Below are positions 13,833 through 47,671 of a stretch of 52,856 bases of DNA, piece after piece. This DNA is from an uncultured bacterium (GTDB lineage Bacteria > Bacillota_I > Bacilli_A > RFN20 > CAG-826): NCBI GenBank assembly GCA_949299335.1, contig CASGAD010000014.1, positions 130,330-183,185 on the forward strand, read 5' to 3'. Every line of letters starts with the position of its first letter. The stretch's first letter is position 1. Below the pieces are notes generated by a model that had not been told where the DNA came from, did not search any database, and was given only the letters and a program-made list of their open reading frames with translations. Both the position numbers and the translations under genes were made by a program.

Positions 13833-14390
13833 TTATTTATCGATAGAATCAGTACTTTCCTCTTCTAGCTCTAAGCTCTCTTTGACTTCACTAGAATCAT
13901 CTAAATCAAGATCTTTTAATGCATCAAAAGGACTTCTTTCATCTTCATCTTTTTGAGCTAGATATTCGTCTTCGGATAATACTTTGTAATTTTCTCCTTC
14001 AGGATAAGTTTCAAAGCGCTTATGAAGCTTTATAGGTAAATTAGCAACAAGCAATGAATAGACAACTTCTTCGATTTCGATATAATCTTTTTCTTCTAAA
14101 ATTATATAATCGGCTGTAGCATATGATTTTCTACTTGTATAGCATAAAACTTCATCGATTTTTTCCTTATAGGAAAAAGGTTCATTACTTACTGAACTCA
14201 AAACAGTTAAATTAGCAACAATTTTAAATCTAATAACACAAACTTCTTCGACTCTTTCAACTAAAATTTTTCCACCTACACTATTAAAAGAAACAATGTT
14301 TTTAGTGTGATTTAACTCATTATATATTTCTGGTTTGCCTTTATAATTGAAAACCTCTTTCTTTTGTATGTTGAAAAAAGATAATCTCAT
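13833..14390 (-). CDS. YceD/DUF177 family protein
   Basis: DUF177 (YceD) proteins affect 23S rRNA accumulation and usually sit just before rpmF (ribosomal protein L32). The features that match are the central strand region ending in FSYKEKIDEVL and the acidic segment KDYIEIEEVVYSLLVANLPIKLH (family pattern: D..EL....LPxxxxH, split here across two motifs). The DERSPFDALKDLDL tail resembles the family's D-P-R-x-x-L-x-x-L ending. The usual Cys pair is not obvious, and no rpmF follows: a terminator comes next. The start overlaps the pheT stop by 4 bases, so it is coupled to pheST. The acidic C-terminal tail is longer than usual. Confidence 0.7.
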   Translation of the reverse strand: MRLSFFNIQKKEVFNYKGKPEIYNELNHTKNIVSFNSVGGKILVERVEEVCVIRFKIVANLTVLSSVSNEPFSYKEKIDEVLCYTSRKSYATADYIILEEKDYIEIEEVVYSLLVANLPIKLHKRFETYPEGENYKVLSEDEYLAQKDEDERSPFDALKDLDLDDSSEVKESLELEEESTDSIDK

Positions 14391-16777
14391 TGACGCATTT
14401 CTCCCCTAAACTTCATTGTTATTATATCACGAATTTTCTTATCAACCACATTAATTTCTTCATCCTTTAGGGTGTGGTCTAATGACTCTAAAATTACGTT
14501 AATTGCCATGCTAAGATGACCTTTTTCAATATGTTCACCTTTATAAATATCAAAAATATTAATTTCTTTAATTAATCCACTAGCTTTTTTGATTTCATGC
14601 TTAATATCTTGATAACTTACTTTCTCATCAATTATAAAAGCATAATCTCTAGAAACACTTGGGAATTTAGATATATCGCTAAATTTATTTTGTGCAGTTC
14701 TTGTTTTAAATAATAAACTTAGATTCATTTCAAAGCATATTAAGACATCATTTTTAGTTAAAGAAAATTCTTTTTTAATTGAAGGATGCAATTCTCCAAA
14801 AACTGCAAGTAACTTCCCATCTAAAGTTACTTTAGCACTTCTTCCTGGATGGAATTCATTTCCTGAATCAATTCTAAAATATTTAATTCTAGACTCTTGG
14901 ATGTTAAACATTTTTAAGATTGTTTCGAAAACACCCTTTGCATCAAAGAAATTATATTCTTTAGCATTTAATTTTGAACTTTCATATTTTTTACCTACAA
15001 ACGCAAAAGCTAAGTGTTGATCATAACTTTTTGTAGTTTGAACTCTTGATATTTCGAATATTTTAAAATCTTCATTTTTACGGTTTAAGTTATATTGAGC
15101 ACATCTAAGAAGAGAGGTTAATATGTTTTTACGGACATATTTTCTATCTTCTGTTAATGGATTAAAAACAACATAGCCTTCTTCAATATTAATATAATTA
15201 AATAATTCGTTGTCTTTTTTATTAATTAAGGTGTAAGAAAGAGTTTCATCAAATCCTTGTTCAAGTAAATAATCTTCAATAGCTCTTTCTTTTCTTTCTT
15301 CATCTTTTAATCCACCAACAGTTGTTTCCATGTTTGGTAAAGAAGAAATGACATTATTAAATCCATTATATCTAACAACTTCTTCGCTTAAGTCAGCTTG
15401 ACCTTCTATATCAATTCTATAATCAGGAACTATGACTTCAAATTCATCATCATTTAAGTCCTTAAAGGCAAAATGTAATGATTCTAGCGTACTTTTTATG
15501 ACTTTTTTAGAAAATTCTGTTCCTAATCTTTTATTGATATAAGCATATGAAGAATGGATTACTTTTGGCTCATGAGTTCCTTCATCATAATTAATATTTT
15601 TAGAAATTTCTTTAGCGTCAGCTAATTCAACGCATAATCTAGCAACTAAATTTAAAACATCATTATATTGGTTAGGATTTATTCCTTTAACAAATCTTTG
15701 AGATGAATCGCTAACTAGTCCTAATCTAGAAGATGTTCTTCTAATCGATGCATGATCAAAATTTGCAACCTCAACTACTATATTTTTAGTGCTTTCATCA
15801 ATTTCAACATTTTCTAATCCCATAATACCTGCAATCGAAACAACTTTTGAATCACTAGTTATTACTAAATCGCCTTTTTGAATTGCGTATGTTTTATCAT
15901 CTAAAGCAACTACTTCGCCTTCATAATCATCTTTTACAATAAGCTCGTTTTTCATAAGTTTATCGTAATCATACATATGAATCGGTTGACCAGTAAGTAA
16001 CATAGCATAATTGCCAATATCAACGATATTATCAATACTTCTTATGCCTTGACTACGTAAAACTTCTTTTAAATATTTAGGCGAATCCTTAATTTTTATA
16101 CCTTTAATTACTTTGCCACTAAATTGTTTACATTTTACTGTTAAACTGCCAACCTTAAACTTTCCTTCGAAAGTGCCTAATTCATTTTCTTTAGGAATAC
16201 TTACTTTTCTATTAAATAAAGCTCCTATTTCTTTTGCAACATTATATAAGGAATAGCAATCACTCCTATTAGCAAGTAAATTTAAATCTAAAATTGTATC
16301 ATCTAAACCTAAGTATTCTAAAACATTAGTGTTTCCAACTTCTGCATCTATTGGTAACTCTTCAATTCCTTTAATTTGCTCTTCTTTTAAGTATTTTGGA
16401 TCAACGCCTAGTTCATTAAGAGCGCAAAGCATACCATTACTTTCTTGTCCACGGATAGAGCCTCTTTTAATTTCTCCTCCTGGCAATTTAGCCCCAGCTC
16501 TAGCGACGATAACCTTAAGTCCCTCTCTACAATTAGGAGCTCCACAAACAATATCTAAAATTTCTTCACCAACATTAACTTTGCAGCAATGTAAATGATC
16601 ACTATCAGGATGAGCAACACAACTTAATACTTCACCAATAACTAAGCCAGTTGCTGTTGATAAATGTTTAATTTCTTCAACTTCAATTCCACTAAAAGTA
16701 AGACGTTGAGCTATTTCTTCAGCACTTAAAGAAGAAATATCAACATATTTAGAAATCTCTTTTAAACTAACTAACAT
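14387..16777 (-). CDS. pheT: Phenylalanyl-tRNA synthetase beta subunit
   Basis: The beta subunit of the alpha2-beta2 enzyme, responsible for editing and part of tRNA binding. The order is an N-terminal EMAP-like tRNA-binding domain (VIGEVLSCVAHPDSDHLHCC), the B3/B4 editing domain, the B5 domain, the catalytic-like core, and a C-terminal anticodon-binding FDX-ACB domain (FPSVSRDYAFIIDEKVSYQDI). The length of 796 aa is typical. It lies 3 bases after pheS with GAGGA before the ATG, so the pair is one transcript under the T-box upstream of pheS. Confidence 0.97.
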   Translation of the reverse strand: MLVSLKEISKYVDISSLSAEEIAQRLTFSGIEVEEIKHLSTATGLVIGEVLSCVAHPDSDHLHCCKVNVGEEILDIVCGAPNCREGLKVIVARAGAKLPGGEIKRGSIRGQESNGMLCALNELGVDPKYLKEEQIKGIEELPIDAEVGNTNVLEYLGLDDTILDLNLLANRSDCYSLYNVAKEIGALFNRKVSIPKENELGTFEGKFKVGSLTVKCKQFSGKVIKGIKIKDSPKYLKEVLRSQGIRSIDNIVDIGNYAMLLTGQPIHMYDYDKLMKNELIVKDDYEGEVVALDDKTYAIQKGDLVITSDSKVVSIAGIMGLENVEIDESTKNIVVEVANFDHASIRRTSSRLGLVSDSSQRFVKGINPNQYNDVLNLVARLCVELADAKEISKNINYDEGTHEPKVIHSSYAYINKRLGTEFSKKVIKSTLESLHFAFKDLNDDEFEVIVPDYRIDIEGQADLSEEVVRYNGFNNVISSLPNMETTVGGLKDEERKERAIEDYLLEQGFDETLSYTLINKKDNELFNYINIEEGYVVFNPLTEDRKYVRKNILTSLLRCAQYNLNRKNEDFKIFEISRVQTTKSYDQHLAFAFVGKKYESSKLNAKEYNFFDAKGVFETILKMFNIQESRIKYFRIDSGNEFHPGRSAKVTLDGKLLAVFGELHPSIKKEFSLTKNDVLICFEMNLSLLFKTRTAQNKFSDISKFPSVSRDYAFIIDEKVSYQDIKHEIKKASGLIKEINIFDIYKGEHIEKGHLSMAINVILESLDHTLKDEEINVVDKKIRDIITMKFRGEMRQ

Positions 16778-16780
16778 ATA

Positions 16781-17824
16781 TTAATCCTCAACTTTCTTAT
16801 TGAATTCTTCGATAAAACGAATATCAGATTGATAGAATCTTCTAATATCATCAATTCCATATCTAAGCATAGCAACTCTTTCAATACCTACACCAAAAGC
16901 AAAGCCACTATATATTGCAGGGTCGTATCCACTCATTTTTAAAACATTTGGGTGAACCATACCAGCGCCTAAAATTTCAATCCAACCAGTACCTTTACAA
17001 GTTGGGCAGCCTTTGCCATGGCAAGCAAAACAACTGACATCAACTTCAACACTAGGCTCTGTAAATGGGAAGTAACTACTTCTAAATCTAACTTTAGCAT
17101 CTTTACTAAACATTTTTTTAGCAAATAGTTCTAAAGTTCCTTTCAAGTTACCTAAATTAATGTTTTTATCAATGACAAGTCCTTCTACTTGAGCAAATTG
17201 ATGAGAATGAGTCATATCATCATCATCTCTACGATAAGTCTTACCAGGACAAATAATCTTAATTGGCTTGCCATTAGCCTTTTCCATTACGTGTGCTTGA
17301 ATTGATGAAGTATGACTACGTAATAAAGAATTATTATCTATATAAAGAGTATCTTGCATATCTCTAGCAGGATGATCCTTAGGAATATTTAATAATTCAA
17401 AGACATATTTATCTAAATCAACTTCAGGACCAGTTTCAACGGTATATCCCATTGAGACAAAGATATCTTCAATTTCTTTTTTAACCTTATAAAAAGGATT
17501 TTCAGCACCTCGATGATAGTTATTACCTGGCAAAGTAATATCAATCTCTTCTTCTTTTAGTTTTTCATTAATTTTATCCTCATTTAATTTAGTGAATTTT
17601 ACATTATAGTTATCTTCAATTACTTTTCTAGAATTATTGAAAGCTTCACCAAAAGCTTTTTTATCACTAGCTTCACGAATTTTATTCATGAGTTGAGAAA
17701 ATTCACCTTTTTTAGAAAGATACTTATTTTTAATTTCCGTTAAATCTTCTAATGTTTTAGCTTCTAAGATTAATGAAACAATTTTTTCTTCTAAATCTTT
17801 AAATATTGGACTATAGTTTTCCAT
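16781..17824 (-). CDS. pheS: Phenylalanyl-tRNA synthetase alpha subunit
   Basis: The catalytic alpha subunit, a class II synthetase. An N-terminal coiled coil (about residues 1-85) is followed by the catalytic core, with RSHTSSIQAHVME, the GKTYRRDDDDMTHSHQF block (motif 2 region), RFRSSYFPFTEPSVEVDV, and motif 3 (GFAFGVGIERVAMLRYGI). I set the start at the ATG at 17824 (347 aa), with GGAGG 5 bases upstream. A second in-frame ATG at 17836 overlaps that ribosome site and is unlikely to be used. Confidence 0.97.
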   Translation of the reverse strand: MENYSPIFKDLEEKIVSLILEAKTLEDLTEIKNKYLSKKGEFSQLMNKIREASDKKAFGEAFNNSRKVIEDNYNVKFTKLNEDKINEKLKEEEIDITLPGNNYHRGAENPFYKVKKEIEDIFVSMGYTVETGPEVDLDKYVFELLNIPKDHPARDMQDTLYIDNNSLLRSHTSSIQAHVMEKANGKPIKIICPGKTYRRDDDDMTHSHQFAQVEGLVIDKNINLGNLKGTLELFAKKMFSKDAKVRFRSSYFPFTEPSVEVDVSCFACHGKGCPTCKGTGWIEILGAGMVHPNVLKMSGYDPAIYSGFAFGVGIERVAMLRYGIDDIRRFYQSDIRFIEEFNKKVED

Positions 17825-17837
17825 AATTACCTCCATT

Positions 17838-18058
17838 TACAAAATAAAAAAGGATAATACTTAGGAACGAAATTTATTCCGTGGTACCATCCTAATTCTT
17901 TTAAATAAAAGCACTTAATTTTAACTTAATCGCTAAGTCAAACGGGTTCATCAAACCAGCTCCAAGGCGAATTCATTAACCATTATATAGAGTGTTCTCA
18001 CTTATCACTCCTCCCTTTAATATAATTAAATTAATTACTACTCCTTTTCAACGCTACT
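17838..18058 (-). promoter_or_regulatory. T-box riboswitch, phenylalanine (pheST leader)
   Basis: The minus strand has the T-box core AGGATGGTACCACGG, followed by a terminator formed by the CCTAAGTATTATCC region and a T run. Upstream is a long stem I with GAGTAG and GGGAGGA elements. The best specifier candidate is TTC (17969-17971) within AATGAATTCGCC, matching Phe. That reading is less certain than for ileS. A TATAAT box at 18061-18066 fits as the -10. Confidence 0.88.
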
Positions 18059-18060
18059 TA

Positions 18061-26265: not shown

Positions 26266-28206
26266 TTAAATATTATTTTCTAAAGCAAACTTTTGTGCTT
26301 TTTCACGTAATGTTTTGAATTCTTCTTCAATTTTTTCTTCTCTTAAAGCTTCTTTAGCCTTACGAGCTTCAATCTTAGCGTTATATGCATTACGTTCTTC
26401 TTCAGACATAGCAGCAATACGATCTTCTTTAGCTTTAATTGCTTCAGCTTTTTTAGCTTCCATAGCAGCTTTCTTTTCTTCTTTTGCTTTGATAGCAGCT
26501 GCTTTCTTTTCGTTATACTTTGCTAATTCTTCTTCGTAATTAAGGCCTTGTTTTTCGCATCTCTTCTTTAAATTAGCAATTGATTCAGCTTCAGCGATTT
26601 CTTCAGCTTCTTTTTGCTCTTGAAGCATTCTTTCTTGAGGAGAAACAAATACTCCTCCTTCAGCTTCAACTTTAGCCTTTTGATCTTCAACAATTGTTCT
26701 ATGATCAATCTTTGAGAATTTTTCAACATTCATGAAAATGAAGATAATACCCATAATCAAGTAACATAATGCTTCTCCACCAAAGAAGATGAATGTATGA
26801 ACAAGTTTTGCGATTTCATTAGGAACACTATTTTCTAATCCATAAATTATTGCGTTTGCAATACCTGGCATAGCAACCATGATTGATCCATAAAGTGCCA
26901 TTGTAAATCCATCGGTTCTCTTACCATATAAAGCTTCTTGATGGTCAAGAACATCGCTCATTAATGCTAGAGAAATATACATTGCAGGAACAGTTCCTAA
27001 AGCTTTTAAACAGAACCCTGCGATTGAAATTCCGAATATCGAAGTTGTATCTGTTCCAAAAGGAATAACTAAAAATCCTGTTAATCCTAATAAGAATGCA
27101 ATGAAGCAACCGGTTCTAATAGTATTGGCTTTTCCGAATTTATTAGCTAAAGGCCAAATAACTACCATTCCTAATGCTGTTGGAATAGCACCAACAATAT
27201 TAATAGTTCCTTGTAATGAAAGGTCACCAACCCAAGCTTGGGAATATAATAAGCAGTCATTATTCTTCAACATACCACCGAATTGATACAAGAAGAAGAA
27301 TATAATAATCATCCACCAATATTTGTCATGCATACAAATTTTGATTTGTGATTTCATTGGGATTTTTTTAGTTTCTTTTTCTTCAAGTTTTTGAGTAGTT
27401 TCTCTTGTAGATTCAGTTAATTTAATATTTTCTTCTGTAATTCTTTCTCTAGAGAAGAAATATTCAATTAAAGATCCTAATAAGAAACAACAGAACATAA
27501 TGCAAATAACAATAATCCATTTGCTATTAGCATCGGCTCTTAAAGCTTCATCAGCTAAATTTCCATTTTCTCCACTAGGTAATAGTCCAAGAGCATCAAT
27601 AATAAATGGTCCAATCATACTTGCTAAACCAATAGCTCCAAGTTGTGAAGCATTTGAAGCAGTTGCAAGTAACGATCTCTTACTGCTATCTCTAGTACTT
27701 AAATTAACTAATGACGAATGGGATGTATAATAGAAAGGATAGGCAACAGCATAATATAAGTTATAACCTATAGCAACCATCGTTAATGTTAAAATATTTG
27801 GATTTTCTATGGTGGCACCTTCTGGGAATGGTACAGCAAATAGTACAACTAATGCGATTGCAATTAATGGTAAAGCAACTAAGATTAATGGTCTAACTTT
27901 ACCTGCAACGCTAGGTTTTCTTTCTGCTAATCTACCAACAAGTAAATTGCCTAATACGATTAAAATTGATGAAACTAAAAATAAAATTGTGCTAAATAAA
28001 GGAGCCCATGATTTTAATCCCAAAACTGTATTCCAATATTGTGCTAAATAAGTGTTAACAACAGCATTGGAAGTTAAGGCTAGCATTGGTCCAACTAAAT
28101 AACCTAAACCAGCTTCAGGAAAGAGCTTTACATTAGCCGATTTTATTTTAGTCGACAAAAGAGGATTTTCAAAAATACTCTTCTTTTTTGTCTTTTGACT
28201 TTCCAT
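26266..28206 (-). CDS. GPH-family (MelB-like) sugar:cation symporter with long charged C-terminal tail
   Basis: An MFS-type importer of the glycoside-pentoside-hexuronide group. Twelve hydrophobic segments span about residues 25-510. Conserved stretches include YNLYYAVAYPFYYTSHSSLV and, in the second half, ALMSDVLDHQEALYGKRTDGF, a typical GPH signature. The last 130 or so residues are a hydrophilic Ala/Glu/Lys-rich coiled coil (EEERNAYNAKIEARKAKEAL), far beyond the normal family end. The start at 28206 (646 aa) is preceded by AAGGAG; the ATG at 28236 lies upstream of that site. Expression should depend on the operator at 28272-28283. A substrate linked to the GH3 glycosidase product is inferred from the shared operator. 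Confidence 0.9.
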   Translation of the reverse strand: MESQKTKKKSIFENPLLSTKIKSANVKLFPEAGLGYLVGPMLALTSNAVVNTYLAQYWNTVLGLKSWAPLFSTILFLVSSILIVLGNLLVGRLAERKPSVAGKVRPLILVALPLIAIALVVLFAVPFPEGATIENPNILTLTMVAIGYNLYYAVAYPFYYTSHSSLVNLSTRDSSKRSLLATASNASQLGAIGLASMIGPFIIDALGLLPSGENGNLADEALRADANSKWIIVICIMFCCFLLGSLIEYFFSRERITEENIKLTESTRETTQKLEEKETKKIPMKSQIKICMHDKYWWMIIIFFFLYQFGGMLKNNDCLLYSQAWVGDLSLQGTINIVGAIPTALGMVVIWPLANKFGKANTIRTGCFIAFLLGLTGFLVIPFGTDTTSIFGISIAGFCLKALGTVPAMYISLALMSDVLDHQEALYGKRTDGFTMALYGSIMVAMPGIANAIIYGLENSVPNEIAKLVHTFIFFGGEALCYLIMGIIFIFMNVEKFSKIDHRTIVEDQKAKVEAEGGVFVSPQERMLQEQKEAEEIAEAESIANLKKRCEKQGLNYEEELAKYNEKKAAAIKAKEEKKAAMEAKKAEAIKAKEDRIAAMSEEERNAYNAKIEARKAKEALREEKIEEEFKTLREKAQKFALENNI

Positions 28207-28261
28207 AAAACGTAAACTCCTTAAACTTGCAATCAAAAAAAAGATTGCTTTTCATGTAATT

Positions 28262-28284
28262 ATTATATCAAGTAAGCGCTTACA
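28262..28284 (-). promoter_or_regulatory. Extended -10 promoter and CRE/LacI-type operator of the symporter
   Basis: The palindrome GTAAGCGCTTAC (28272-28283) lies 4 bases upstream of an extended -10, TGATATAAT (TATAAT at 28262-28267). Read as TTGTAAGCGCTTACTT it fits the catabolite-response consensus with one mismatch. A bound regulator would cover the promoter. Confidence 0.8.
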
Positions 28285-28523
28285 AAAAAAGTAGTATTTA
28301 TAGCACTTATTTTCATAATTTAAATAAAATTCTTCCGATGGAATCGATACTTTTGCAATAATATCATTATTTAAATCTTTTATTGTAATATGAAACTTTT
28401 TAATCTTATTTTTTATTAAAAGATACATTTACAATAAAGAAATATCATTGCAAAAAATAAAGATAAAAGCGCTTAAATAACGCTTGCAACATATTTATTG
28501 CATATCTTAAATATATAGTATCT
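28285..28523. other. Upstream region of the symporter, with a second operator-like core
   Basis: No gene. The 8-base palindrome AAGCGCTT, the core of the neighbouring operator, recurs at 28467-28474, about 195 bases upstream of the main site. It could be an auxiliary site, but the flanks do not match. Confidence 0.4.
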
Positions 28524-29882
28524 TTACTTGATTTCTTCTAAGGCCTTATCAGGAAAAATGATCGAAACAGTAAAATAATTTTCTTTCCAACCACATTTAA
28601 CATTTCCATCATATTTTTCCACTACTTTAATAATAGATTTCATTCCATAACCATGGTATCTTTTATCTTTTTTAGTAACTGGAAAATCTTTATAAAAATC
28701 TGGTCTAATTGAACAATAGTTTCTTATGTAAATAAAGATTGATTGCTTTTCTTTATAGCACTGTAAATGAATAACCCTATTTTTCTCTTCTTCATCATTA
28801 ACAGCGTTTATAGCGTTATCTATTAAATTATCAAATAAAGAAACAACATCTTCACTATCCATGAAATTTAATATATTTCCATCAATAAAATAAGTAAAAT
28901 CTATTTTATTATTAAGTGAAGTTAAGTAAGTAGACATAAGTATAGTGTCAATTCCTGCATTTCCAGTTTTGACAAAAGAATCATACACCGAGACTGTTTT
29001 TTTAATATTTTCAATCTCGTCATGATTTATTGAACTATTAGCATTTTCTTCTATTCTTTTTAATTGCTTTTTAATGTCATGAAACTTGATATTAATTAAA
29101 TCTATATTTTCTTTAGATACTTGATTTAATCTATTTTGTTCTTTAATCAAAAGATCTAACGTATGATTGTTAGATTTTAATTTAGATTCTAAGAAAAAAG
29201 AAAATTGCATGTATAAGCAAAGGAAGCAACCAAATATAGCATAAATGTTACAGATAACATTTATAGTAAATTCGTTTATTGTTCCATTTAAAGAAAAACC
29301 TTTAAAGATAGATAAAACCATACAAATAAGTAAGTTAAGAATTGATATACCTAAAATACGATTATCAATAATTTCATATGTTTGATATTTTTTATGATAT
29401 TTTCTTACTAGGAAAATATATATTAGAACTATTAAGCAAATTTTAAATAAAAGATTAAAACATATATCAACTACTAAAGAAGGCATGGTTAATCCAGAGT
29501 GTTCAATAAAATACAAAATTATAGCTTCGATACCATTTGATAAATGTTCAATTGAATAAGCCGCGACAGTATAAAAAATTGTCTCTTTAAAACTTAATTT
29601 AAATGAAAAGAATAACAAAAAAGAAATTAAAAATACTTCAAACAAAAAGAAAATTAGCTGGAAAATTAGCCCAAGAATTGCATAGTTTTTAGTTAAATCA
29701 GTTAAATAAAGTGTCAATAAGCAAAAAGCAGTTTGTAGAGTTATCATCCCAATAACCCCTACACCTACTCTAATATAAAACTTATCTTTTCTTGGACAAT
29801 TTAAAGTAAGTAAAAATGCACTAAATAATAAAGTAATCGACCATATTAATGGAACTCTAAAAGCAAGATAAAGTAAATCCAC
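28524..29882 (-). CDS. AgrC/LytS-type GHKL sensor histidine kinase
   Basis: A membrane sensor of 452 aa. About six membrane helices fill residues 1-230, followed by a coiled-coil dimerisation region with the phospho-acceptor motif KFHDIKKQL. A GHKL ATPase follows, with the N box (LFDNLIDNAINAV) and G box (HGYGMKSIIKVVEKYDG). This is the arrangement of AgrC-like kinases that pair with LytTR regulators, which is exactly its partner here. It begins with GTG, 3 bases after the regulator stop. The signal is unknown; no peptide pheromone gene is evident next to it. Confidence 0.92.
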   Translation of the reverse strand: MDLLYLAFRVPLIWSITLLFSAFLLTLNCPRKDKFYIRVGVGVIGMITLQTAFCLLTLYLTDLTKNYAILGLIFQLIFFLFEVFLISFLLFFSFKLSFKETIFYTVAAYSIEHLSNGIEAIILYFIEHSGLTMPSLVVDICFNLLFKICLIVLIYIFLVRKYHKKYQTYEIIDNRILGISILNLLICMVLSIFKGFSLNGTINEFTINVICNIYAIFGCFLCLYMQFSFFLESKLKSNNHTLDLLIKEQNRLNQVSKENIDLINIKFHDIKKQLKRIEENANSSINHDEIENIKKTVSVYDSFVKTGNAGIDTILMSTYLTSLNNKIDFTYFIDGNILNFMDSEDVVSLFDNLIDNAINAVNDEEEKNRVIHLQCYKEKQSIFIYIRNYCSIRPDFYKDFPVTKKDKRYHGYGMKSIIKVVEKYDGNVKCGWKENYFTVSIIFPDKALEEIK

Positions 29883-29885
29883 ACT

Positions 29886-30605
29886 CTACATCCAACCCTT
29901 TCTCTCACCAAAATAATTAAATAAATCATCAATAAATTCTTTTTTACGATGTCTTGCAATTGGCAAGGTTACCCCTTTTAAGTATACAGAATCTTGGGTT
30001 GTTTTTTCTACATAAGCTAAATTTACTAGTATTCCTTTCATGCAATAAGAGAATGCATTTTCATGTAGTTTAGATTCAAACATACTAAATGACCCTCTAA
30101 CTCTATATTCTTCTTTTTCTGTATGAAAAATTAAATAGTTACCATCTTTTTCGATATATAAAATGGTATCTAAATCACAGACAATATTAGTAGAAGCATT
30201 AATTTTTAAAAGGATACTCTTATCTTTACTTCTTTTTTTGATGTTTAGAACTCTATTTAATCGATGTTCTATATTTGTATAGTTAAATGGTTTAATGATA
30301 TAATCCAAAGCATTTACTTCATATCCTTTTAAGGCAAATTTAGATAAATTAGAGACAAAAATAATTGTGACATCTTCATCTTTTTCTCTAATTCTTTTGG
30401 CTAAATCCATACCATTAATATTTGGTAAATCTATATCAAGAAAAATAATGTCTTCATGACACTTAAATGCATCTAGCATTTCTAAACCATCTTGAAACAC
30501 TCTAATAGCACATTCTCTTTCAGCTCGTTCAAAGAATAATCTAACGTATTTCTCTAACTTATCGCTATCAGACAACGTATCTTCAACAATTATAATGTTA
30601 TACAC
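29886..30605 (-). CDS. LytTR-family response regulator
   Basis: A 239-residue regulator. The receiver domain has the acidic pocket (IIVEDT), the phospho-acceptor Asp in FLDIDLPNING (about residue 57) and the conserved Lys in LDYIIKPF. The LytTR DNA-binding domain follows at about residues 135-235 (ILYIEKDGNYLIFHT, ending RHRKKEFIDDLFNYF). It starts with GTG, with AAAGGAGGG just upstream. It forms a two-gene operon with the kinase. A 19-bp inverted repeat lies immediately before its ribosome site. Its targets are unknown; LytTR sites are paired direct repeats. Confidence 0.93.
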   Translation of the reverse strand: MYNIIIVEDTLSDSDKLEKYVRLFFERAERECAIRVFQDGLEMLDAFKCHEDIIFLDIDLPNINGMDLAKRIREKDEDVTIIFVSNLSKFALKGYEVNALDYIIKPFNYTNIEHRLNRVLNIKKRSKDKSILLKINASTNIVCDLDTILYIEKDGNYLIFHTEKEEYRVRGSFSMFESKLHENAFSYCMKGILVNLAYVEKTTQDSVYLKGVTLPIARHRKKEFIDDLFNYFGERKGWM

Positions 30606-30617
30606 GTTCCCTCCTTT

Positions 30618-30668
30618 TATACAAAAAGGTTTTATTATCTAAAATAAACAATAAAACCTTTTTGTATA
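30618..30668 (-). terminator. Perfect 19-bp inverted repeat before the response regulator
   Basis: The arms at 30618-30636 and 30650-30668 are perfect complements (core ACAAAAAGGTTTTATT), with a 13-base loop. The 3' arm ends in CCTTTTTGTATA, so T5 is within the stem. It sits between the stop of the small membrane gene (30672) and the regulator ribosome site (30609-30616). It probably attenuates transcription between the two units. Confidence 0.7.
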
Positions 30669-30671
30669 TTT

Positions 30672-30911
30672 TTATTTTGATACAACTTCTATTTCAGCCT
30701 TCTTTTTTAAAACCATTGGTATAAAATCAATTAATGTACAAGCTAACATTATTGCAGCTATTACAACTTCAATTATTCCTTTCATACCACCATAAGCATT
30801 AAAATCAGCACTTCTAAAGGTAATAATATTAATTTTTGATGACATCACAATTAGTGGAATACCTATAATAAGTATAGCAAATAAATAATTGACTCTGCTA
30901 AATAACCCCAT
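30672..30911 (-). CDS. Two-helix membrane protein, probable C-terminal part of a frameshifted gene
   Basis: Seventy-nine residues with two membrane segments (about 8-27 and 45-70) and a Lys/Glu-rich end. No known family. It overlaps the preceding 153-codon gene by 49 bases in the -1 frame. Its ATG lies exactly at an A5 run (30911-30915), where one added A would join it in frame to the upstream protein. No good ribosome site precedes its ATG. I think both are halves of one four-helix membrane protein of about 218 residues. Confidence 0.6.
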   Translation of the reverse strand: MGLFSRVNYLFAILIIGIPLIVMSSKINIITFRSADFNAYGGMKGIIEVVIAAIMLACTLIDFIPMVLKKKAEIEVVSK

Positions 30912-31324
30912 TTTTGAACTTCGCCCAAAATTTTATTTTCTTTTATAGGTTTGATTTTACTAATTACAAACATTGCGATTTCATAAACTAAGGCAATTAT
31001 TAATAAACTTACTGCCATGAGGCTTAATACTGCTAAGAAATCACTTGCTCCTGTTCCAGTTTTAGAGTCAATACCCATAACTGCTCTCCATTGACCAGAG
31101 TATAATCCAAAAGCATTAAAATTATCGGTCCAAAAAGTTCCAAAGAAGAATTTTACTGCTGAATTTCCTGATGAGTCACCTGTTAAACCAGGATTACCAT
31201 AAGTCATAAAGTGTTGTGCACCATTTCCTAATGCGTCCCAAATTACTAAAGGGAAAGCAGCAATTAAAATTAAGCCTATAATAGCAAATATTAAACGTAA
31301 AATTTGTGTTTTTCCTTTTTTCAT
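30863..31324 (-). CDS. Membrane protein, probable N-terminal part of a frameshifted gene
   Basis: A 153-residue protein with membrane segments at about 10-30 and 93-118, with an extracytoplasmic Gly/Ser/Phe-rich loop between them (SAVKFFFGTFWTDNF). Beyond residue 139 the sequence (WGYLAESIIYLLYLL) runs in the shifted frame of the next gene, and this is probably not the native end. AAAGGAT lies before the ATG. It lies in the glycosidase operon, downstream of the lipoprotein and after a strong hairpin. Function unknown. Confidence 0.65.
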   Translation of the reverse strand: MKKGKTQILRLIFAIIGLILIAAFPLVIWDALGNGAQHFMTYGNPGLTGDSSGNSAVKFFFGTFWTDNFNAFGLYSGQWRAVMGIDSKTGTGASDFLAVLSLMAVSLLIIALVYEIAMFVISKIKPIKENKILGEVQKWGYLAESIIYLLYLL

Positions 31325-31344
31325 ATTTATCCTTTCTCACTTAA

Positions 31345-31376
31345 ATGATAAGTGTTGCGTCTGCAACACTTATCAT
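31345..31376 (-). terminator. Strong hairpin between lipoprotein and membrane-protein genes
   Basis: A perfect 14-bp stem (ATGATAAGTGTTGC / GCAACACTTATCAT) with a 4-base loop. No T run follows in the minus direction. This is more like an mRNA-stabilising or partial terminator element that separates expression of the GH3/lipoprotein part from the genes downstream. Confidence 0.65.
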
Positions 31377-31382
31377 ATTTAA

Positions 31383-32138
31383 TTAAGCATTTGCGACAAA
31401 ATTTGATCTAATTTGCATGTCCCAATCTCTAATGACGTAAGTATCACCAGGTTGTAATTCGGTTTTGTTTCCATCAGTAACAACATAATTACTGAATTCA
31501 TAACCTTCTCTAGTGTATTTACATTCTGGGAGAGTAATTGTATCACCAACATGACCTTCAAAATTATATTCGGACATGTCACCAGTTAATTCGCCAACTT
31601 TAGTTTCGCCTGCCCAACCAGATTGCCAAATTCCATTATCAAAAGTAATTTCAAATGTTGGTTGTTCAGGAAGTGTTTCATTAGCTCCAAATGCTTCATT
31701 ATAAGCACTTAAGAAATCATATTTTGACATATGGTTTTTATGATATTTAAAACCTGTTCCTCTATCGTCTGGATGGGAGAAAGTCCACGACCAAATTCTT
31801 GCATCGGTAGTACCATCAATTACAACAGCTTCATTTCTTTCAAAACCATTCATGTCTAAAAGGGTCATTTTCAATTCACCTGATTCAATGCTCCAACTTC
31901 CAGAAAAATCAGCAAACATTGCTTTTCCAGTTGCATGGGCTTCCCAAGTGTTGTCTTTATGGAATATTGTTTCTGCAGGAGAAGGACCTAAATCCCCCTT
32001 ACCTGCCATAACAAAATTACCTGCGTTTTCACAATATGATTGATAAATATCATCACTACTAGCTCCACATGAAGCAAGTGCAATAGATCCCAAGATAATG
32101 CTACAAGCACATACCTTACTTAAAAATTTATTTTTCAT
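31383..32138 (-). CDS. Lipoprotein with C-terminal InlB-like repeat
   Basis: A 251-residue exported protein. The lipobox is IALASC (Cys 24). A Trp/Gly-rich middle (GSWSIESGELKMTL) resembles a small beta-barrel ligand-binding fold. The C-terminal 60 residues (GHVGDTITLPECKYTREGY ... MQIRSNF) resemble a Listeria-Bacteroides type repeat. The start at 32138 is supported by AAGGAG 8 bases upstream; a start at 32159 lies before that site. It is 20 bases after the GH3 stop and probably co-transcribed. A role as accessory glycan-binding lipoprotein is inference from context. Confidence 0.75.
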   Translation of the reverse strand: MKNKFLSKVCACSIILGSIALASCGASSDDIYQSYCENAGNFVMAGKGDLGPSPAETIFHKDNTWEAHATGKAMFADFSGSWSIESGELKMTLLDMNGFERNEAVVIDGTTDARIWSWTFSHPDDRGTGFKYHKNHMSKYDFLSAYNEAFGANETLPEQPTFEITFDNGIWQSGWAGETKVGELTGDMSEYNFEGHVGDTITLPECKYTREGYEFSNYVVTDGNKTELQPGDTYVIRDWDMQIRSNFVANA

Positions 32139-32158
32139 AATTTTATCTCCTTTTTGCA

Positions 32159-34888
32159 CTATTTAGTTTCGCCTTCTGGTAATGCTTTTTCTTTTTTACT
32201 AAGAATGTAAGATGCAATTAGCATTCCTAAACTTCCAGCAAATATGACACCGAAGACACTTTCTACTGAAACAATGGCTACTTTCCACCATGGAGTAATT
32301 GAAACAATTCTTGTATTTGGTGATAATCCATTAATTGTATGGGTTCTTGAAGCAACATAGAGCATTTTAACAGCTGCGTTAACAAGAGCTTTATTAATAA
32401 CTGGATCGTTTCTATATTTATCACTTGTTAATAATCCATATGAGTATGGGTTTAAAGTTGTGTGTAACCACATTGAAGTTTCACCTAATAATCCATCGAT
32501 AACATCTTGGTGATTAACTTCAAACATATCAGTAACAATTGCACCCTTAAATCCTAATTCGTTATATAAGTAACCTGTTTGTGAACCATAGTCTTCACCA
32601 GACCATAACATACCAACTCTATTAAACGAGTTCATAAGTCCAAGTCCATCAAATTTAGAAATACCGTATTCAAATCCTTGGAGGTAAACTTCTCTAACTG
32701 TTTGTTCATTAGCCCAAGTTGTAATACCATGTCTATGGTCTTCTTGATCGTTTAAGAAATAGTGTTTTGCATAGCAGTTAGAACCTTTTTCTCTCATTCC
32801 ACCGATTGCATAACCACAAGCCATACCTGTGATAAATCCATCTTCTGAGAAGTATTCACCATTTCTTCCACCATATGGAGTTCTGTGGATATTTGGTGAG
32901 AATCCATATAAACCAACTGATTTAACTGTTTTTGTTGATGAGTGTAAGTTTTGTTCGCCTTCAATTAAACCAATATCTTTCATTATTTCTGCATTAAATG
33001 TTGCAGCTCTCATATCACCAGAAGTAAAGTCAGTTCCAACTAAACCTGTCGCTGAGAATGGATTGACACGGCCCATTGAAGAGTCTTGGTCTGTTTCTTG
33101 AAGTTTGCCAACTGATGGAACAGCAATACTACCATACCAACAATCCATAACTAATGAAGCTGTTTCTTCATATGTCATTTGTTCAGCAAGTTTCCACCAT
33201 TGTTCATCACCCCATGGTGTATCTTTTAATTTAACAACTGTTAAGCCATTATTTTGTCCATATTTTGGCATTTCTGTTGCTGCTTGTTCTTCAGGATCAG
33301 CAACATAAGTAATGGACATAGCTTGTTTTAACATATCTTTGTTATATGTTACTCTATATGTCTCAGTTGGATATGTTCCTGTCCAGTCATTTCTTGATAA
33401 GTATTTGAAATCGCCATTATCTTTTTTAGCGTATTCATCTCTTAATAAGTCAACACTATCAAATTGATTTTCAACTTCATTTCCTGAAGCATAGTTTGTT
33501 GAGAAAATTTCTGTATCTAATTTATCATTAGTAATTTTCTTAGTTAAGTTACTATCTCCACCAATAACTGAATAGCCTTTAGCAGCTAATATATTATTTG
33601 TTGCTTCATGAGAATCACCAGCAACTGTGAAATAGTAATCTCCACTATCATAGATATAAGTACCAGCGCTATAAGCATCATATGTTCTTAATTGCCATTT
33701 ATCAACTTCCATTGTAACTGTAGTTGTTGCGCCTGGTTCAACTACATCAGTTGTTTTTCCAAAGCCAACTAAATTTACAGCAGCTTGTTCAATATGATTC
33801 TCTTTAGCGTAATCTGTATATGGTTTTTGCAAGTAAACTAAAACAGAATTTTTACCTGCAACTTTACCAGTATTTTTGACATCGACTGTAATCTTATATA
33901 CATCTTCATCTGAATCGTCAAGTTTCATATTTGAATATTCAAATGTTGTGTATGATAAACCATGTCCAAATGGATAAGCAACATATGAATCATAATCAAA
34001 TGTTCCTACTTTTGGAGTGTTCATGACAACGTCTTCATATCTTGTTTCATAATATTTATAACCAACATAAATGCCTTCTTGATAGACAACTGCTCTATCC
34101 CATGAAGATTGTTGTGGGTTATCACTATAAGTGTAAGCGTCAACATTGACTGCATCATAATCAGCTTTAGTTATATCGTCAGTAAATTCTGCACTATAAG
34201 TACCAAAGTTAACCATAGCAGGATTTAACATATTATCAGTATAAATTGTATCGACAAGTCTGCCAGATGGATTAATGCTACCATCTAAAATATTGACTAA
34301 ACCTTCTGTACCATATTCTCTTGACATTTGCCCGACCCATAAAGCGGAGTCAATTCCGTATTCAGGATTGGTTAAGAAATCACCTGCGATAGCATTAGAT
34401 GTTGAGAAAATAACAACTATCTTTCTAAATTTACCTTGATCCTTTAATGCTTTAATTCCTTTAAGCATTGTGTCTTCAGTAGTTGCTAATGATAAATAAT
34501 CACCATTTGGGAATTCTGTTTCATTAGCTTTATTAATTGAACCTTGGACTTGGCTTGAGGCAAATTCTGTATCAATTGTTGTTTGTTCATGAGCACAATC
34601 TGTACCTTCACCAGCTCTTCTTCCTAAAACTACAAGTGCAACATCGCCTTGGCTAGATGGTACTGTAGACCAATCTGGTAAATTGACAGATGTTCTTGCT
34701 ACTGGTTTTTTTGCTGCATATGCATCCCAAACTGAACTATCAACTGTATATCCAGCTTTAGTTAATACACCATTTAAATTTGTGAAATAAGCTTGTGCTC
34801 CATTTCCATAAACAGTAATTTTCTTATCTGTAGCAGCTAATGGTAATGCACTATTATCATTTTTCAAAAAGTGCTGTACCTTCTTCAA
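32159..34888 (-). CDS. GH3 glycosidase with swapped domain order and C-terminal membrane anchor (main part, frameshifted at 5' end)
   Basis: A glycoside hydrolase family 3 enzyme, likely a beta-glucosidase type. Domains run in reverse order: GH3 C-domain first (residues 1-230, ALPLAATDKKITVYGNGA), a fibronectin-III-like domain (about 320-430, VDVKNTGKVAGKNSVLVYL), then the catalytic barrel (about 530-860). Catalytic landmarks are NIHRTPYGGRNGEYFSEDG, CYAKHYFLNDQEDHR and the nucleophile in VTDMFEV (Asp about 787). One membrane helix (about 871-895) ends the protein. No proper start exists: the first codon of this frame is TTG without a ribosome site. A single-base change in a T5 run (34866-34870) would fuse it to the upstream fragment, giving the family motif EEGTALF-LKNDNSALPL. 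Confidence 0.88.
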   Translation of the reverse strand: MKKVQHFLKNDNSALPLAATDKKITVYGNGAQAYFTNLNGVLTKAGYTVDSSVWDAYAAKKPVARTSVNLPDWSTVPSSQGDVALVVLGRRAGEGTDCAHEQTTIDTEFASSQVQGSINKANETEFPNGDYLSLATTEDTMLKGIKALKDQGKFRKIVVIFSTSNAIAGDFLTNPEYGIDSALWVGQMSREYGTEGLVNILDGSINPSGRLVDTIYTDNMLNPAMVNFGTYSAEFTDDITKADYDAVNVDAYTYSDNPQQSSWDRAVVYQEGIYVGYKYYETRYEDVVMNTPKVGTFDYDSYVAYPFGHGLSYTTFEYSNMKLDDSDEDVYKITVDVKNTGKVAGKNSVLVYLQKPYTDYAKENHIEQAAVNLVGFGKTTDVVEPGATTTVTMEVDKWQLRTYDAYSAGTYIYDSGDYYFTVAGDSHEATNNILAAKGYSVIGGDSNLTKKITNDKLDTEIFSTNYASGNEVENQFDSVDLLRDEYAKKDNGDFKYLSRNDWTGTYPTETYRVTYNKDMLKQAMSITYVADPEEQAATEMPKYGQNNGLTVVKLKDTPWGDEQWWKLAEQMTYEETASLVMDCWYGSIAVPSVGKLQETDQDSSMGRVNPFSATGLVGTDFTSGDMRAATFNAEIMKDIGLIEGEQNLHSSTKTVKSVGLYGFSPNIHRTPYGGRNGEYFSEDGFITGMACGYAIGGMREKGSNCYAKHYFLNDQEDHRHGITTWANEQTVREVYLQGFEYGISKFDGLGLMNSFNRVGMLWSGEDYGSQTGYLYNELGFKGAIVTDMFEVNHQDVIDGLLGETSMWLHTTLNPYSYGLLTSDKYRNDPVINKALVNAAVKMLYVASRTHTINGLSPNTRIVSITPWWKVAIVSVESVFGVIFAGSLGMLIASYILSKKEKALPEGETK

Positions 34889-35153
34889 CTATACTTCTAT
34901 AAAGATTTTTACCATCTTCGACAAGCTTTTCTTCACCTTTTTGATCATAAGTGTACTCGGATTTATAATATTCGGTATCAATTTGATCAGCATTTGGATC
35001 TTCAACGATTTGTGTTGTTGATGCGTTTAACATTGAGTTAATAGCTGGCTCAAAATAATTTGTTACTCGTTCACCTACGACTAGTGCGCCGAATAATACG
35101 CCAGTAATTGCTGTCGCTGAAATCCATAATTTACGATTTTTAATGACTTTCAT
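34857..35153 (-). CDS. N-terminal anchor fragment of the GH3 glycosidase
   Basis: Ninety-eight residues. A membrane helix (about residues 8-28, LWISATAITGVLFGALVVG) is followed by a Tyr/Glu/Lys-rich stretch ending VEDGKNLYRSIVEEGTALF. That final stretch is the conserved lead-in of a GH3 C-domain (EEGxxLLKNxxxALPL), whose continuation is in the overlapping frame downstream. So this is the 5' end of the same gene, with a one-base frameshift at T5. The start at 35153 has AAGGAG 6 bases before it; the region upstream carries the operator. The intact protein would have a membrane helix at each end. Confidence 0.82.
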   Translation of the reverse strand: MKVIKNRKLWISATAITGVLFGALVVGERVTNYFEPAINSMLNASTTQIVEDPNADQIDTEYYKSEYTYDQKGEEKLVEDGKNLYRSIVEEGTALFEK

Positions 35154-35226
35154 ATATGCTCCTTTTTTCATTATTAGGTTACGCGTGGCCACTTGTAATC
35201 TTTTGTGCCTTCATATTATTTAGAAT

Positions 35227-46877: not shown

Positions 46878-47671
46878 CTATATTTCTCTAAATTTTTTAT
46901 TAACTAATTCGTTATAAATCGCGAAAATCACAATTATAACGCTAAACTAGAAATACAAAATAAGCCATAAGGAGATTGTAAATATAAGGTTACATAGCCT
47001 ATATATTTACAACTTCCTACAACTTTTCCCTTAACGTCTTTAAAGTTAATCAATCCATCATTACTGTTTTTAGCATCTCCTTGAGTAATTACTTAGTATG
47101 TTGTATTTTTCTCCACTTTTCTATTACTCTATGACAAACTAATGTTTCTCCATTAAAGTAAGTGACTACATCATTAACTTCTACTTCATTAAATGATTCA
47201 TATTCTTTAGTAAGTATAATATCTCCTTTAGCATATTGATTTGTGATTCCTTCAAGTCTAGTTTCATTACTAGCGTCTACATAGGACATTGATTGACTTG
47301 AAATAACACTTAATCTATAACCATCAATAGAAACGTTATAATTACTAAATTTATCAGCAAAACTAAAAACTTCTATTATTAATTAATTTTGAAGAGTCTG
47401 TTAAAGTTAAAGTATGATTAATTTATCTAGTTACTTCATTACTTGCACTCCAATCAATATTAAGTTGCCTAAATTGATATGATGAAGTAGCTAAATCAGT
47501 AATTGGAGAAACATTTTATATCTTCACCCCGTTTTAAAACTAATGCGCCATCAGTGGTAACAGTTCCTGTTTGATTTGCTTCTTTAAAAATGAAACTAGA
47601 CGCAGTTGCTGCTCCACCTAAAGCCGATACGGCGGCTATGGATAAAAAGAGCTCTTCATACTAAACTTCAT
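46878..47671 (-). pseudogene. Decayed fibre-protein plus SipW-like signal peptidase module
   Basis: The reading begins at ATG 47671 behind AAAGGAA. By changing frame one recovers SIAAVSALGGAATASSFIF and TVTTDGALVLKRGED (an exported-protein start), then a short middle with in-frame TAG/TAA stops. A truncated S26 peptidase follows, with ISSQSMSYVD (Ser), LVCHRVIEKW (ER-type His), VITQGDAKNSNDG (Asp) and a C-terminal helix (VIIVIFAIYNELV). At least four frameshifts and two stops interrupt it, and the peptidase N-terminal helix is missing. The longest intact piece is 66 codons (47089-47289). It lies between the two starch-binding lipoprotein genes. Confidence 0.85.

Follow-up and report, generated by a model that had tools for sequence, protein, structure and literature searches.

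The DNA analysed here (the window, 52,856 nucleotides from an uncultured gut bacterium) carries a gene for a surface GH3 glycosidase that is split between two overlapping reading frames, and the question raised by this locus is whether the gene has been lost, has been misread in the assembly or is corrected during expression. The original prediction left these three options open. The comparison with orthologs, with the neighboring genes and with the rest of the genome indicates that the split is probably a recent and genuine inactivation of a permuted GH3 gene located in a decaying cassette, most likely a case of ordinary gene decay and not of a new mechanism.

Structure of the Split GH3 Gene

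The split of the surface GH3 gene is confirmed in the sequence, with two frames overlapping on the minus strand at positions 34857-35192 and 32159-34888. These frames and the T5 run at their junction (Table 1) had been described in the original prediction and were found in the sequence as stated there. The upstream fragment is preceded by a good ribosome site (AAGGAG at about 35159-35164, five bases 5′ of the ATG) and encodes a basic N-terminus, then a hydrophobic anchor and finally the first part of the GH3_C (sandwich) domain. At its end the TGA is followed by TAA and TAG (TGA-TAA-TAG), which corresponds to the out-of-phase reading of the lead-in Asn-Asp-Asn-Ser. The 3′ fragment is devoid of a start, of the anchor and of the first ~95 residues of the GH3 protein. 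As had been claimed, the downstream frame offers only a TTG: inspection by eye revealed no Shine-Dalgarno-like site before this codon (34888), and the next Met in the frame is residue 141. No other stop or frameshift was detected within the 909 codons, as a young break would give.

Two orthologs, L039 (972 aa; horse-faeces MAG contig JAKSVD010000104.1, genome G214, which comprises L039/L040) and L045 (983 aa; genome G275), carry the GH3 gene as one frame together with the same neighbor gene. Since both cross the break point in a single frame, the pair of frames is more than two chance ORFs, and the proposal of one split gene holds. In tblastn searches, the L039 protein matched the 5′ part over residues 1-94 (64% identity) and the 3′ part over residues 95-971 (70.5%), and the L045 protein gave 53% over residues 1-102 and 68.7% over residues 101-983. 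The gapless fit of both fragments to these proteins and the absence of any other stop in the large frame indicate that the break is young, in agreement with the earlier statement that both parts are otherwise intact.

In the 3′ fragment the Pfam domains are ordered as GH3_C (8-277), Fn3-like (349-426) and GH3_N (658-795), all above cut-off. The published description of the ruminal GH3 β-glycosidase GlyA1 (PDB 5K6L-5K6O; PMC5104943) gives the same order, likewise in a gut setting, and assigns Asp-709 as the nucleophile and Glu-143 as the acid/base. By alignment of L039 with GlyA1 (PDB 5K6L) and transfer of the residues to the split gene, both were placed at conserved positions of the large 3′ fragment, so that the catalytic residues are present as first claimed. 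Unlike in GlyA1, the frame is broken here and hydrophobic segments occur at both ends, and the similarity is moderate (phmmer E 2.9e-36 with L039 as query). NCBIfam equivalog matches of the GH3 protein were far below their cut-offs and point to no substrate.

Table 1. Position of the features discussed in the text (window coordinates unless a locus is named).
Feature	Position	Strand	Description
GH3 gene, 5′ fragment	34857-35153	-	98 aa; ATG at 35153, TGA stop at 34857-34859
GH3 gene, 3′ fragment	32159-34888	-	909 codons open; permuted GH3; no plausible start; C-terminal hydrophobic segment
T5 run (sense strand) in CTT TTT GAA	34866-34870	-	Where the one-base excess fits best
Glu at the aligned position of the acid/base residue Glu-143 in GlyA1	34607-34609	-	Glu of AGEGTD, identical in L039 and the split gene
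Asp at the aligned position of the nucleophile Asp-709 in GlyA1	32528-32530	-	Asp of VTDMF, identical in L039 and the split gene
Five-gene cassette, GH3 as gene 1	26266-35153	-	MFS sugar transporter follows gene 5
Gene 2, lipoprotein-like	31383-32159	-	Intact; likely start ATG 32138; 51% identity to the L045 gene (264 columns)
Gene 3, 5′ fragment of membrane protein	30863-31324	-	58% identity to the intact L047 protein (214 aa) over its residues 3-154
Gene 3, 3′ fragment	30672-30911	-	Different frame; matches residues 125-206 of the 214-aa L047 protein
Second lesion, in gene 3	30878-30888	-	4 nt fewer than L047, at an ATTT/TTTA repeat (compared by eye)
Gene 4, LytTR response regulator	29886-30605	-	Intact; PF00072, PF04397
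Gene 5, GHKL-type sensor kinase	28524-29882	-	Intact; PF14501
Signal-peptidase-I-like (SipW-like) gene fragments, probable pseudogene	46934-47292	-	Two frames, break near 47065-47092; NCBIfam matches below cut-off
Two-component response regulator, plainly an older pseudogene	L063:16090-16600		Own genome; several frameshifts and stops

Sign and Placement of the Indel

The original prediction proposed that the frame would be rejoined by adding one T to the T5 run, and in this respect it has to be corrected. The codon phases differ (35153 mod 3 = 2, 34888 mod 3 = 1) and the downstream frame lies +1, meaning that the GH3 gene carries one surplus base (or lacks two); it is not one base short. An extra T in the run would only put the TGA into the upstream frame. 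Similarly, the peptide that had been offered as the joined product, EEGTALF continuing into LKND, is one residue longer than the orthologs, while with a net −1 at the junction both sides abut L039 and L045 without a gap.

As any change within about 34857-34871 produces the same two frames, the indel may be placed only within that interval, and the fit favors the T run. The residue found at the critical place of the GH3 lead-in was Leu in 26, Val in two, Ile in one and Phe in none of the 29 recognized lead-ins. These were obtained from a survey of GH3-like ORFs with a minimum length of 700 aa, a set of 58 that includes the fragment of the split gene itself, some genes in duplicate, ORFs truncated where a locus ends and ORFs with the other domain order. 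The 29 ORFs without a recognized lead-in are the split gene and 28 others that are cut by locus ends, have another domain order or do not match the motif; a looser second look at those 28 recovered some additional permuted genes, with L, L, M, M, and V read by eye at this place, again with no Phe. The first survey alone was unable to find a split gene because the ORFs had been chosen as open frames; the split in L011 described below came to light only from the second look onward.

A further permuted GH3 gene, in another member of the genus (L011:827-3879, G014:C27), is also divided into two frames, and each of four GH3 queries matched one of its pieces in frame 2 and the other in frame 1. The division lies at about L011:1303-1435, some 110 codons past an intact lead-in, thus at a different point, suggesting that breaks in the GH3 family arise independently (by indels or errors) and not at a conserved shift site.

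Constraint and Distribution of the GH3 Gene

Against the two orthologs, the 3′ part of the split gene showed a dN of 0.23-0.24 and an NG86 dS of 0.83 (L045) and 3.2 (L039), a ratio that is indicative of past constraint. For the 5′ part dN was 0.27 and 0.41, with dS saturated or 1.3. In a three-way comparison of the 3′ part, 123 residues were unique to the split gene, 49 to L039 and 61 to L045, which may reflect faster change in the split gene or its position as the outgroup.

At E 1e-160 the GH3 gene was matched in one of 26 genomes of the genus, its own. Wider searches gave matches in 6 of 224 genomes of the family (E 1e-155), 8 of 279 of the order and 1 of 395 in a sample of the class. Apart from the own genome, relatives at ~70% identity were found only in G214 and G275, the remaining matches being at about 41-42%. 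A search of genome contigs returned a single relative, L039, and none was found among the viral contigs searched. The gene shows the same degree of similarity to a genome of the same family as to one of another family, and is absent at E 1e-160 from the other members of the genus, which suggests horizontal transfer; the accessory cassette, whose gene order is retained in a genome of another family, was probably acquired horizontally.

A Second Lesion in the Cassette

The GH3 gene is the first of a cassette of five (Table 1), and the same gene order is kept in G275 (L047), where GH3 is followed by genes of 265, 214, 238, and 447 aa. No Pfam matches were obtained for genes 2 and 3. The pieces of gene 3 were recovered in frame −2 (L047 residues 3-154) and frame −1 (125-206), and the own genome holds only this broken copy. 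The lesion of gene 3 is independent of that in the GH3 gene, and the whole cassette therefore appears to be decaying. As a separate observation, the ortholog of gene 2 in the horse-faeces MAG (L039:5055-5769) is interrupted by an internal frame-changing deletion, although this lies close to where the 5.8-kb contig ends.

Breaks in the Rest of the Genome

A homology scan for frameshifts was performed with the ORFs of two genomes of the same genus (400 kb each) against 469,634 bases of the own genome, which is assembled in 37 contigs. Among 293 relative ORFs that were matched, four frameshift-like rows fell at three places, none of them in the GH3 gene, which has no ortholog in those relatives. 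Two of these places are the signal-peptidase-I-like fragments and the response regulator listed in Table 1; the third (L061:8416) is a weak row resting on a 28-bit piece. In the reverse scan (own ORFs against the DNA of the relatives) 253 queries were matched with no frameshift-like row. Thus, the own genome shows somewhat more breaks than the two relatives, a difference to be expected from decay as well as from a poorer assembly. When loci of other relatives were used as queries, genes 1 and 3 of the cassette both appeared as broken, evidencing that the scan is able to see such breaks. These results supersede an earlier scan with fewer relatives and stricter score limits (153 and 175 queries matched, no frameshift-like rows). 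All Pfam GH3 matches elsewhere in the own genome fall within uninterrupted frames, 821-1077 aa long. Most of the genes compared are intact, with decay in a few accessory ones, which favors real decay, short of proof for the GH3 base itself.

An intrinsic hexamer scan left 121 of 260 junction pairs in the own genome and 163 of 284 in a relative without a start preceded by a ribosome site; being too noisy, it served only to notice the region 47000-47500. A promoter scan was uninformative (25 sites vs 25.2 expected). Elsewhere in the window, a T-box leader (RF00230, 111.5 bits) was detected at 17860-18060 on the minus strand, a short distance 5′ of two ORFs on that strand, 16781-17836 and 14387-16777.

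Origin and Consequences of the Split

In the mechanism proposed, a gain of one base (modulo 3) at or beside the T5 run would have inactivated the membrane-anchored GH3 gene, with replication slippage as the probable origin. Translation from the ribosome site of the ATG at 35153 would yield only a short anchored peptide ending at the TGA, and the 909-codon remainder, having no usable start, would be expected to give no surface enzyme. The split, the intactness of the orthologs, the second lesion and the conservation of the catalytic residues are seen directly in the sequences, whereas we infer that the indel is present in living cells, that it arose by slippage and that function has been lost.

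An error of the assembly or of the consensus, or a collapsed mixture of strains, would mean that the gene is intact and its GH3 product normal in the cells. A single miscalled base in the consensus would be indistinguishable from the lesion observed, and a single homopolymer indel in an otherwise intact gene with no further decay is what such an error predicts. Antonov et al. (2013, PMC3711429) regarded unclustered frameshifts with BLAST support as errors or recent indels, with singletons expected to be errors rather than genuine indels. The division of the assembly into 37 contigs points the same way. The GH3 split resembles the singleton frameshifts and young pseudogenes of that study in being supported by homology, unshared by the orthologs and free of a conserved recoding signal, but differs from a typical singleton in that a second lesion is present in the same operon, making genuine decay likelier. 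Besides, five Ts make a short run for a homopolymer error, and 789 such runs occur in the 234 open ORFs of at least 250 aa in the sample of the own genome (T8 and T9 being absent); the adjoining lesion in gene 3 involves 4 nt and is no homopolymer miscount; and frameshift-like rows were few in the scan, one of their places being plainly an old pseudogene. On this evidence genuine decay is favored over an error, which is the main rival and has a smaller but appreciable probability.

Explanations in which the broken gene still serves the cell are improbable even when taken together. The gene for prfB uses a programmed +1 frameshift, and the shift here is in the same +1 direction; unlike in prfB, the best-fitting shift point lies at least two sense codons before the stop, is not conserved and has no identified stimulator. 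Restoration of the full-length enzyme by programmed +1 frameshifting or by transcriptional slippage could draw on a simple +1 step at CUU-UUU just before the in-frame stops and on the intactness of both parts. However, the site is unsplit in L039 and L045, no recognized GH3 lead-in showed a split at this place, the 234 ORFs contain 28 copies of CTT-TTT-G in this phase, and the second frameshift of the operon would need correction too. For transcriptional slippage the run is also short of the about nine A/T at which, as reported by Baranov et al. (PMC1088944), selection against A/T runs shows in many genomes. Such recoding is thus very improbable, and the expression correction contemplated in the original prediction is disfavored by the unconserved site, the ordinary T5 run and the second indel, whereas its option of true decay is retained ahead of the assembly error.

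Reversible phase variation, in which slipped-strand gain and loss at short repeats would switch genes 1 and 3 of the cassette on or off from cell to cell, would suit a surface enzyme, and both lesions do fall at simple repeats (T5 and an ATTT unit). Both tracts are nevertheless very short compared with the A/T tracts of at least 7 demanded by the screen in PMC3711429, which cites long repeats as the known cases, and two genes of one operon would be off simultaneously. Switching of this kind is improbable, and slightly more so is its extended form, a surface GH3/two-component cassette whose genes 1 and 3 are both slippage-switched at very short repeats so that the cells of a population would possess the enzyme system at one time and lack it at another. 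Finally, the two fragments might be two functional proteins, the 3′ one being re-initiated and working by itself, as it keeps both predicted catalytic residues and its TTG overlaps the stop region. This arrangement is the least credible of all: no ribosome site precedes the fragment, no in-frame ATG occurs before residue 141, no export signal was found at its start, the missing N-terminal residues include the start of the sandwich domain, and neither ortholog is so organized.

Implications

Recent inactivation, the preferred reading, has a practical consequence for annotation: unless reads support an intact frame, this genome should not be credited with an active GH3 enzyme, and the sign of the indel given in the original prediction needs to be corrected. 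The cassette occurs with a GH3 gene of about 70% identity in a genome of another family and not at that level in the other 25 members of the genus. It would thus represent a small example of how gut bacteria gain and lose genes for sugar degradation.
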